Assembly: GCF_001685355.1 (NCBI RefSeq) | Contig: NZ_CP016438.1 | Coordinates: 2,604,001-2,668,000 of the forward strand | Source: Streptomyces lincolnensis | GTDB lineage: Bacteria; Actinomycetota; Actinomycetes; Streptomycetales; Streptomycetaceae | DNA: 64,000 nucleotides | Reading direction: 5' to 3' | Shown here: one piece after another, positions 10,486 to 12,504 of the stretch | How positions within the stretch are numbered: the stretch's first letter is position 1 | Layout: the number at the start of each line of letters is the position of its first letter | The notes under the pieces: model-generated | Told to the model about the DNA's origin: nothing | Database searches by the model: none | Seen by the model: only the letters and a program-made list of their open reading frames with translations | Position numbers and translations under genes: made by a program

Positions 10486-12066
10486 TCAGGCGGCCCAGGG
10501 CCAGTCGGCGTCCCGGGCGGCCTCGATCAGCGGAACCATGCGGAAGGCCGCGTCCGAGAGGCCCGCGAAGGTGTGCCGGTTCGCCTTGCCCGACGGGCCG
10601 TGGCCCGCCCGGTAGCCGGCGAGGTTCCAGGTGTAGACCGGCACACCCGCGGGGACCTGCTCGGTCGGGTCGCCGTGGCGGTTGTAGGAGTACTGCTCGT
10701 CGGTGACGATCAGCACCCGGTCCTGGCCCCGGTAGTGCGCGCGCACCGCCGAGGTGGTGTCGGTGCCGCCCAGGTCGCCGAAGCGGCCGAGGATCTTGAG
10801 CACCGACTCGCCCTCGCCGAAGGCCAGACGCCGGCTGGTGGTGCCGAACTCGACGAGATCCGCGTCCGCCGCCCGCAGCGCGAGCGCCGTACCGAAGATC
10901 GCCGCCGCGTCGGCCCGGTTGAGCTGCGAGCGGTCGGACAGCGGCGCCCACATCGAGCCCGAGCGGTCGACCAGCACCAGCGTCCGGCCGGGCAGCGCGG
11001 GCACGTTGGCCAGCGAGTGACCGAGCGCCCGCTCCAGCGGGTACGACCAGCGCAGCGAGGGCGCGTGCCGGTACGCGGCCAGGTACCGGAAGGGGAACTG
11101 CCGCGAGCGCGCGACCTCGGCGGGGTCACTGATCCGGGCGGCGACCCGGGCCGCCACCTCGTCCGAGACCCCGGCCTCGTCGAAGTTGCGCAGGTTGCGC
11201 ACCAGCGCCATCGAACCCATGGACGGGATCACGGCCTCCCAGGCCGCCCTGTCCATCGGGCCCTGGAGCCAGCCGGCCAGCGCCTCCCACGTCATCCCGG
11301 CCGCGGCGAGCCGCTCGGCACCGCCGCCGGAGGTGACCACCGCGCGCCGCCGCCGCACCGGCAGCGCCATCAGCTCGCGGTGCGCGGTCAGCACCCGGTT
11401 CGACGCGGGCGGTACGGCCGTCTCCGGGTTGTGCCGGCGGTCGAGGGCGTACCGGAACAGCTCGCCCTGCCACGGCTTGTCCGGGTCCGGCGCCGCGTGC
11501 ACCAGGTTGAGGATGTCGCCGAACCGGTAGCCCTTGGACACGGTGTCGTACTTCAGCAGCGACCTGCCGCCGTACAGCCGCCGTACGGCGTCGGCGACAC
11601 CGCGCTTGACCGGCTTGGGGACGGCACGGCCGTACGTCGCCGTCCAGTACGCGAGCAGTTCGCCGGGCTCGTCGGGCCGCTGGAGCACGGAGTCGACGAC
11701 CTGCCGGTTCGACGGGCCCTCGGTGCTGCCCGCGTCGAGGCGGGCCTTCACGTACTCGGCGGCGCCCACGATCGCGACCGTGCGCAGGTTGCCCTCGGCA
11801 CGCAGCCAGCCGAGCAGGCCGGCCGTCCACTGCGCGTCGGTGACGGCGAGGTCGCGCACGAGGCGCGCGAACCGCTGGTCCCGGCTGTCGCCCGTCTCGT
11901 AGAAGGTCCGCTCGGAGACGAAGTGGGAGACCGCCAGCAGAAAGAGCTCGGAGCGCGCGTCGCGCTCACGGCCGCGGCCGCCCTCGAAGGTACGCAGCAC
12001 CCGTCCCGTCGACGTCACACGCGACGTGGGCTGCGCCTTGGCGGCCCGGGTGTTGAATCGTGCCAT
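10486..12066 (-). CDS. TROVE domain protein, bacterial Ro60 orthologue (Rsr)
   Basis: A 526-residue RNA-binding protein of the Ro60/Rsr family. In characterised bacteria Rsr binds Y RNA, which tethers it to PNPase for RNA decay and rRNA maturation. Residues 20-320 are the ring of helical TROVE repeats (FEGGRGRERDARSELFLLAV, RRLYGGRSLLKYDTVSKGYRFGDILNL). The C-terminal 200 residues are a von Willebrand A domain with an intact MIDAS: DRSGS, then GTDTT and VTDEQ. ATG 12066 is chosen at MARFNTRAAKAQ. The gene lies just downstream of tRNA-like Y RNA modules on the same strand, which fits this function. It is not linked to rtcB or other RNA-repair genes here. Confidence 0.93.
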   Translation of the reverse strand: MARFNTRAAKAQPTSRVTSTGRVLRTFEGGRGRERDARSELFLLAVSHFVSERTFYETGDSRDQRFARLVRDLAVTDAQWTAGLLGWLRAEGNLRTVAIVGAAEYVKARLDAGSTEGPSNRQVVDSVLQRPDEPGELLAYWTATYGRAVPKPVKRGVADAVRRLYGGRSLLKYDTVSKGYRFGDILNLVHAAPDPDKPWQGELFRYALDRRHNPETAVPPASNRVLTAHRELMALPVRRRRAVVTSGGGAERLAAAGMTWEALAGWLQGPMDRAAWEAVIPSMGSMALVRNLRNFDEAGVSDEVAARVAARISDPAEVARSRQFPFRYLAAYRHAPSLRWSYPLERALGHSLANVPALPGRTLVLVDRSGSMWAPLSDRSQLNRADAAAIFGTALALRAADADLVEFGTTSRRLAFGEGESVLKILGRFGDLGGTDTTSAVRAHYRGQDRVLIVTDEQYSYNRHGDPTEQVPAGVPVYTWNLAGYRAGHGPSGKANRHTFAGLSDAAFRMVPLIEAARDADWPWAA

Positions 12067-12113
12067 GGTGAATTCCCCCGAATTCTTTGGTGTTTCGGAG
12101 GGAGGCACAGCAA

Positions 12114-12270
12114 ATGGAGGGTGCCCGAGATCAGAAGTCGGCCACGGAACTTATTCGGATGCTCTGCCTGATTGAGCTACATCGGCCCGAAGCCGATGAC
12201 GAGGACTCGAACCCCGCAACCTTCCGATCCCAATGAAGTAGCCGTTGCCTGCGCACCGGGCACCCACCAT
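12114..12270 (-). ncRNA. Y RNA 2 with permuted tRNA-like domain
   Basis: About 157 nt, directly upstream of the TROVE gene. The ends pair: GGGTGCCCG (12265-12257) with CGGGCACCC (12127-12119), extended by ATGG/CCAT beyond one mismatch. Inside, in 5'-3' order, are a T-arm (12216-12200, loop TTCGAGT), a 7-bp acceptor-like stem CATCGGC/GCCGATG closed by a 5-nt loop (12198-12180), then TA and a D-arm GCTC/GAGC (12177-12161). T-arm before D-arm with the acceptor stem closed by a loop is a circular permutation of tRNA, as expected for the effector domain of YrlA-type Y RNAs. End positions are the minimum from pairing. Confidence 0.85.
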
Positions 12271-12274
12271 GAGC

Positions 12275-12309
12275 TGCGCCTCCCGAGATCAAGTCGCACC
12301 GGGAGGTGC
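12275..12309 (-). ncRNA. Mini Y RNA-like hairpin lacking the tRNA-like domain
   Basis: Between the two Y RNAs, CCTCCCG (12306-12300) pairs with CGGGAGG (12285-12279), and the outer TGC/GCA extends it past one mismatch. The loop joins CCCGGTGCG to GATCTCGGG, exactly the 5' and 3' sequences that flank the stem of Y RNA 2. It looks like a Ro-binding stem with the whole tRNA-like insert deleted. Whether it is a separate RNA or part of a longer transcript is unknown. Confidence 0.5.
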
Positions 12310-12322
12310 ATGAAGTTGTGGT

Positions 12323-12458
12323 GTCCAGAGTTCAGGTCGGCGGAACCGACGTAGGTGCTCTGCCCCTGAGCTACACCGGCGCGTTGTACCGGTGGCGGGA
12401 TTCGCACCCGCGGCCGCCCCATTATGAGTGGAAGTAGGTCCTGCCTTCGCACCTGGAC
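12323..12458 (-). ncRNA. Y RNA 1 with permuted tRNA-like domain
   Basis: At least 136 nt. The closing stem is GTCCAG (12458-12453) with CTGGAC (12328-12323). The tRNA-like core is a T-arm GCGGG/CCCGC with loop TGCGAAT (12411-12395), a 7-bp acceptor-like stem CACCGGT/GCCGGTG with one wobble and a 7-nt loop (12394-12374), then TA and D-arm GCTC-AGGGGCA-GAGC (12371-12357). It shares GGTGCG-AGGCA and CTACTTC blocks with Y RNA 2, while the helices differ in sequence but keep pairing. The RNA may extend upstream to about 12480. Confidence 0.82.
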
Positions 12459-12504
12459 GTTCCTCGCTCTAGGAGGCGTGCCGCGGGGTGGGCGACCGAA
12501 TTAA

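Follow-up and report, generated by a model that had tools for sequence, protein, structure and literature searches.

The sequence between a PhoX gene and a TROVE (Ro60) gene of Streptomyces lincolnensis raises the question of whether it encodes Y RNAs, the RNA partners of Ro60, and, if so, how many and of what kind. So far, only a small number of bacterial species have had their Y RNAs investigated. An initial annotation of the window (the whole 64,000-nucleotide stretch analysed here, in which all features given with coordinates below lie on the minus strand) had proposed a two-copy array of YrlA-type Y RNAs with permuted tRNA-like domains, followed on the same strand by a TROVE gene. We consider it very probable that the array encodes Y RNAs, clustered partners of Ro60 located in the leader of the TROVE gene, a reading that includes the proposals made below for its promoter, its docking site, its effector ends, and a gate-like role of a third, middle element.

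The downstream gene (10486..12066) encodes a protein of 526 amino acids from an ATG at position 12066, a start codon placed by means of the conserved leader. In line with the initial annotation, this protein matches positions 291-350 of the 442 in the Pfam profile PF05731 with 48.6 bits (cut-off 23), and profile matches to solved TROVE proteins were obtained for 9kop/9l5y (E 1.2e-31) and 1yvp (E 0.0037). In the vWA domain, the residues D367, S369, and S371 of a DxSxS motif, which we take to be a MIDAS-type signature, are invariant in 14 aligned proteins.

Upstream of this gene, three elements were distinguished: Y RNA A (12323..12458; 136 nt), which is distal to TROVE, the shortened middle element M (12277..12308; a 32-nt hairpin), and Y RNA B (12119..12265; 147 nt), which is proximal. 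The assignment of A is based on the Rfam YrlA family, covariation, and a tally of T-loops, that of M on our own covariance model R1 (E 2.9e-4 in its own genome), and that of B on YrlA, covariation, and the covariance model R3 (155.9 bits, with the window copy among the sequences used to build the model). The YrlA model (RF02553) aligns with both larger elements in permuted order, with 44.2 bits for B (E 1.4e-8) and 29.5 bits for A (E 2.4e-4). Because both scores are lower than the gathering score of 69, which is a curated threshold and not a structural feature, an Rfam scan at gathering level found nothing in the whole window; ARAGORN likewise found no tRNA in it. The two copies of the initial annotation thus correspond to A and B, in which the end-stem and acceptor-stem pairs that it quoted and the shared blocks GGTGCG(A/C)AGGCA and CTACTTC are indeed present, while M, between them, had been missed.

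This layout was compared among 81 TROVE loci, namely the window and the best 80 of 455 loci from named genomes, which are not a random draw; all 80 belong to Streptomyces, and the top match is S. lincolnensis with 94% identity. With 634 upstream bases per gene (292 for L010), patterns for all three elements were found in 50 of the 81 loci, including the window and L016, whose B has shrunk to 70 nt. Another 28 loci contain M and B, among them L010, where the absence of A reflects the end of the contig, and L049 contains A and M without B. In L011 and L020, A is accompanied by an M that the pattern missed on account of one extra G and that became apparent when the sequence was read directly; it is followed by the beginning of a B. 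A was therefore counted in 53 loci and B in 78, and M, by pattern and reading together, was found in 81/81.

In B, the end stem (12265-12257/12127-12119; GGGTGCCCG/CGGGCACCC) and a helix of 5 pairs equivalent to the anticodon stem (12227-12223/12159-12155; TCGGA/TCCGA) enclose a T arm (12217-12199), an acceptor-like stem (12198-12180; CATCGGC/GCCGATG), and a D arm (12177-12161). The T stem, of 6 bp, contains a paired insertion that makes it longer, a feature shared with L051, and both U55 of the T-loop and GG of the D-loop are retained. The helix equivalent to the anticodon stem covaries, with two-sided changes at 3/5 pairs in one form of B (class I) and at 5/6 in the other (Leu-like). The initial annotation had placed the RNA ends of both modules where a tRNA has its anticodon arm. 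This is true of B, where the anticodon stem is kept and the RNA exits and re-enters at the former anticodon-loop position; in L050, for instance, B closely matches tRNA-Arg(ACG) to either side of the opening (score 74, versus 65 for the next isotype). It is not true of A, which has a separate hairpin resembling an anticodon arm (12433-12417; loop CTCATAA) between its end stem (12458-12453/12328-12323; GTCCAG/CTGGAC) and the T arm (12411-12395), followed by an acceptor-like stem (12394-12374; CACCGGT/GCCGGTG) and a D arm (12371-12357).

The hairpin of A consists of 5 bp and a 7-nt loop, and 2 of its pairs change two-sidedly in a diverse set of A sequences. Among 65 sequences, the loop reads CTCATAA in 27 and CTGATAA in 16, with other loops, one of them of 6 nt, in the rest; its first two letters and its last letter are constant, and the middle of the would-be anticodon is variable. 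The hairpin therefore seems to preserve the fold of an anticodon loop rather than a decoding identity, to judge from these letters. One of 18 newly fetched A sequences (L181) has no such hairpin, which speaks against its being essential. The window A is alone among the 53 A sequences in having a T-loop without TTC (TGCGAAT, with U55 changed to G), and it retains GG in the D-loop. In YrlA-type Y RNAs, U55 of the T-loop is a target of TruB, and GG of the D-loop marks the site modified by Dus.

When compared with doubled tRNAs of the window's own genome, which served as the yardstick for all species, A, B, and the single RNAs of the O1 kind described below reach median scores of 51-66, against shuffle maxima of 30-38. 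B occurs in two forms: one without an extra arm, with the D arm GTAGCTCA or alike, in 40 of the 81 loci, and a Leu-like form, GTGGCGGAA...GACGCG, in 39; the remaining 2 loci were unassigned. In the latter, the best tRNA is Leu in 26/35 aligned sequences, 22/35 have a variable arm, and the stem of this arm changes in sequence while every counted cell pairs, with two-sided changes at 5/5 pairs. In the former, the best matches, given here for 38 of 39 sequences, are scattered (His 16, Arg-ACG 7, Lys 5, Asn 4, Pro 3, Met 2, and Gly 1), and class I in general could not be assigned to one tRNA isotype. Neither window element could be assigned to a single isotype, as the best scores are Gly 47 and Asn 44 for B and Thr 61 and Met 56 for A. 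On the TROVE tree, whose resolution is weak (33 of its 78 inner branches are open) and whose change counts are therefore rough, the form of B and the presence of A each change at least 16 times. By eye, the end stem of B bears an A-type tRNA domain in L179 and L188, and an O1-like domain in L178. Together with the changes in B form, these hybrids suggest, at the level of sequence, that docking end and effector end get exchanged.

The middle element has no such tRNA likeness: full-length M, of about 77 nt, consists of an end stem (CCTCCCG/CGGGAGG), an inner stem, and a pyrimidine-rich loop, and scores no higher against the doubled tRNAs than shuffled sequences do (median 22 versus 24). In 11/81 loci, including the window, M is reduced to 32-37 nt. 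The window copy reads CACCTCCCGGTGCG-ACT-TGATCTCGGGAGGCG and retains the end stem and an internal loop that is also present in A and B, where GGUGCG lies opposite, in most cases, [U/C]G-AN-C-U; GGTGCG was used in the patterns that found A, M, and B, and its constancy is thus partly a matter of choice, while the 3′ motif is missing in 2/48 A, 5/35 Leu-like B, and 3/11 O1 sequences. Since the same internal loop occurs in A and B, short M is just the part that the Y RNAs of the array have in common.

A somewhat doubtful but serious alternative is that the short M of the window is only the remnant of a deletion, a hairpin for processing or spacing, and not a Ro60-binding RNA. Its 32 nt are, to our knowledge, fewer than those of any known Y RNA, the same 11 loci have lost the upper stem and loop, and the letters of the remaining short loop vary, all of which would suit a spacer. 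However, every one of the 11 short copies retains the end stem and both sides of the internal loop (GGTGCG and GANCT) and has lost everything above them, and the state of M changes at least 8 times on the same weakly resolved tree. We lean towards reading short M as a Y RNA. The stem and internal loop shared by the three classes are presumed to be the Ro60 site, by analogy with known Y RNAs, which have this site in the lower stem; in Deinococcus radiodurans, the lower stem of the Y RNA is described as the site of Rsr (PMC4726728; PMC8394870).

The proposed structures were examined in six alignments. For A, these were a close set (48 distinct sequences of the 53) and a diverse set (32 of 66 distinct sequences, which drew on 17 of the 18 newly fetched ones, L181 being excluded). 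The M set held 66 distinct full-length sequences. For B, 74/76 distinct sequences were used (39 class-I and 35 Leu-like), with L016 (70 nt) and L078 (an insert) excluded; L011 and L020, whose M the pattern had missed, gave no B, and L049 has none. The O1 set comprised 11 sequences, namely 10/11 single RNAs away from TROVE, without L087, which is of another class, and with L206. In these sets 98.0-99.8% of the cells pair, and 0/500 shuffles match the paired percentage or the covariation score of any of them; with slid partners as a control, 27-58% pair. Two-sided changes were found at 8/38 pairs in class-I B (98.9% paired), 17/40 in Leu-like B (98.0%), 4/15 in M (99.1%), 12/34 in diverse A (99.5%), and 8/32 in O1; for class-I B and diverse A, 0/500 shuffles attain these values. 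In close A, whose members are close relatives that vary little, 2/34 pairs change two-sidedly, a number reached by 9/500 shuffles. The count of further pair types was reached by 55/500 shuffles for M, 500/500 for close A, 1/500 for diverse A, and 5/500 for O1. In the end stems of A, M, and B, 98-100% of cells pair, with two-sided changes in the B stems and at one pair in diverse A, and none in M. The initial annotation had taken the differences between A and B as helix covariation; these are divergence between paralogues, but covariation does exist among orthologues, and the test that it had named as a refutation, uncompensated loss of pairing in other Streptomyces, did not refute its reading when applied to the orthologue alignments.

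Folding without a given structure led to similar models. RNAalifold returned the end stem, the inner stem, and the T, acceptor, and D arms for class-I B, diverse A, and O1, together with the anticodon stem in class-I B and the anticodon-arm-like hairpin in diverse A and O1. For Leu-like B, it returned the end stem, the anticodon stem, the three arms, and, close to the 5′ side, an additional small helix; the variable arm was not recovered. Minimum-energy folding of the single window sequences did not recover the tRNA-like fold of A or B, the proposed fold being 11-13 kcal/mol less stable than the minimum (-52.2 versus -65.4 for B, and -42.4 versus -53.6 for A).

The array is preceded by a putative promoter. 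A -10 box (12466..12471) lies in front of A, and TANNNT is found at exactly -13 of A in 51/53 loci; the window, with TAGAGC, is off this pattern. An AT-rich box, TTAATTCG (12497..12504), lies upstream of the first RNA, by the stop codon of PhoX; the motif TTAATT[CG] occurs no more than 75 nt before the first element in 63/81 loci, and here 25 nt from the -10 box. As its -10 box deviates, A has lost U55, and M is shortened, part of the array may be decaying in the strain of the window, judging by its letters. At the other end of the leader, a GAATTC-GGGG-GAATTC hairpin (12070..12085) with a likely Shine-Dalgarno sequence in its loop lies 3 nt before the TROVE start codon. This motif is present in 78/81 loci, folds with -6.0 kcal/mol, and may control the translation of Ro60.

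From these features a mechanism can be proposed in which one promoter, with its -10 box fixed 13 nt before A, would transcribe A, M, and B together with TROVE, the individual RNAs would be released by processing, and the paired ends would hold each of them. The shared stem and internal loop would then dock Ro60. Above the docking site of A and B, the permuted tRNA-like domains would form an effector end that, by analogy with Deinococcus and Salmonella, could dock PNPase or enzymes that recognise tRNAs. M would bind Ro60 without an effector and thus act as a gate or filler for its ring, reduced here to the docking hairpin. A rival explanation regards the array as a leader that acts in cis on the TROVE mRNA, sensing tRNA enzymes or mediating autoregulation through Ro60, with no free RNAs released from it. 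It would account for the short distance of 45-92 nt between the end of B and the start of TROVE, seen in all 78 loci with a B, and for the conserved hairpin whose loop holds the likely Shine-Dalgarno sequence. However, the fixed distance between the -10 box and the end stem of A, the pairing of the ends of each element, and the relatives found away from TROVE, described next, speak against it, and we consider it improbable.

Genomes were searched with covariance models built on Streptomyces orthologues. Among 121 genomes of the genus, TROVE was found in 68, matches to the M model in 66, and both in 65 (Fisher p 2.3e-29, not corrected for kinship). The three TROVE genomes without an M match (G044, G059, and G081) have R3 matches of 65-142 bits, so that 68/68 TROVE genomes have at least one Y RNA model match. 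The only one of these 121 genomes that has M and no TROVE (G066) carries, next to M, a C-terminal remnant of TROVE with 74% identity over 70 amino acids, and the loss of the gene was seemingly a deletion; at this locus (L101, 5660-5989), the start of B runs into the codons of the last TROVE residues (455-524), and M looks intact. Of 148 genomes of the class, 18 have TROVE and 14 have matches to M (E up to 0.01); the latter include three other families, some genomes with two or three matches in a row, and one weak match (32.7 bits) in a TROVE-less genome (G234). In a further group of loci (L190-L197), an M-like RNA precedes a different TROVE gene, which is a second copy in G013, G016, G039, G101, G110, and G030, and the sole copy in G038 and G041.

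Among the matches listed, 17 genomes have Y RNAs far from TROVE or on another contig, and all of these genomes are TROVE-positive (hypergeometric p 2e-5, not corrected for kinship). They include single RNAs of the O1 kind in ten genomes, a single RNA of another kind in G052, a second pair of M and a tRNA-like RNA in G065, and seven loci of the O2 kind (G040, G101, G091, G024, G095, G053, and G013). O2 is an M-like RNA, which a tRNA-like RNA follows in three of the seven loci (L094-L100). In L094 and L096, the two loci whose neighbours were checked by Pfam, it is flanked by metK and by a gene encoding a PriA domain, and the setting of the other five is alike by gene lengths only. In all O1 RNAs (L083-L086, L088-L093, and L206 of G081), a TANNNT box precedes the end stem by 11-12 nt (11/11), and 10/11 have a common strong hairpin after this stem, a count made with no shuffled control, which suggests that such RNAs need no gene downstream. 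Of eleven single RNAs compared with tRNAs (with L087 and without L206), 7 are nearest to tRNA-Glu, and the exact O1 pattern occurs in 8/121 genomes, below the count obtained with the model.

In the window's own genome, with model matches accepted up to E 10, no Y RNA was found outside the array, neither O1 nor O2. Six further matches (15.6-18.9 bits, E up to 10) were rejected as Y RNAs: three (L106-L108) overlap or adjoin tRNA genes, and in the other three (L105, L109, and L110) inspection of the sequence revealed no Y RNA motif. R3 matches of about 50-55 bits, which occur in many genomes of the genus, were left uncounted because the one in the own genome spans two tandem tRNA-Asn genes. At this site (L104, 1496-1648), the genes lie 5 nt apart and their junction reads like a permuted tRNA domain (49.8 bits with the class-I B model); a tandem tRNA junction is a possible route of origin for the permuted domain. 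That the elements are merely decayed tRNA genes or functionless relics of tRNA-gene recombination, as their similarity to tRNAs and this match to a tRNA-Asn pair might suggest, is very improbable given their covariation, their co-occurrence with TROVE, and an M without tRNA similarity.

Other known RNAs place the array in a described class. Second Y RNAs without a tRNA-like domain exist, such as YrlB of Salmonella, and M resembles such RNAs; it differs from them in being the most constant element of its array and in its reduction to a short hairpin in some loci. A survey by Chen et al. in 2014 reportedly lists likely Y RNAs encoded close to Ro60 for more than 250 bacteria and phages, with at least one Y RNA per species having a tRNA-like domain, and the Streptomyces arrays may already be within its tables. 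That a bacterial Y RNA can be circularly permuted relative to tRNA has already been published, from the structure 6CU1 (PMC11472068). For YrlA (RF02553; Salmonella, 6CU1), a paired-end stem, permuted T, acceptor, and D arms, and a gene that adjoins the Ro60 orthologue are described, as observed here (PMC8394870; PMC11472068; PMC7790460). YrlA is also described as a substrate of DusA and TruB, in an article that covers the Rsr–PNPase machine as well (PMC8394870). In contrast to YrlA, the Streptomyces array comprises three RNAs, its A and B score below the Rfam gathering cut-off, its A has an anticodon-arm-like hairpin, its B has kept the anticodon stem, and the B of its relatives also occurs in a tRNA-Leu-like form with a long variable arm. 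Moreover, whereas the Salmonella operon is named rsr-yrlBA-rtcBA in PMC7790460, no RtcA or RtcB domain was found among the five neighbouring ORFs scanned here. The Rsr/PNPase system (RYPER) of D. radiodurans similarly unites a Ro60 orthologue and a Y RNA (PMC4726728; PMC8394870), a likeness drawn from published descriptions, and PNPase contact in Streptomyces is proposed by analogy only. Likewise, an actinobacterial TROVE with a Y RNA is mentioned for Mycobacterium smegmatis in the literature (Y RNA, PMC4726728; TROVE, PMC8628891), again a likeness by description. Within the literature collection searched, no paper on Streptomyces Y RNAs was found. The class is known, and the three-part layout, the swapped tRNA-like parts, and the scattered relatives look like new detail.

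A more far-reaching interpretation, which we find rather unlikely to hold in full, joins these observations as follows. Streptomyces would maintain a shifting set of Y RNAs in which the Ro60-docking end is constant and the effector end has time and again been exchanged for parts of different tRNAs (Met-, Leu-, Glu-, Tyr-, and Arg-like), both in the TROVE-linked array and at the loci away from it; the domains would have arisen from tandem tRNA junctions, the RNAs would be anticodon-less, isotype-specific decoys or guides, and the bare M hairpin would be an off-switch for the same ring. If this were true, the RNAs would guide Ro60 either to specific enzymes that handle tRNAs or to tRNAs that are damaged.

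For the biology of the genus, Streptomyces offers natural experiments, as near relatives differ in whether the mimicked tRNA is Leu-like or another, and loci exist with or without A, with M cut to a docking hairpin, or with Y RNAs away from Ro60. Part of this Y RNA repertoire would escape a search confined to the surroundings of Ro60. These differences make it possible to test how small an RNA can be and still be accepted by Ro60, and whether the identity of the mimicked tRNA matters.
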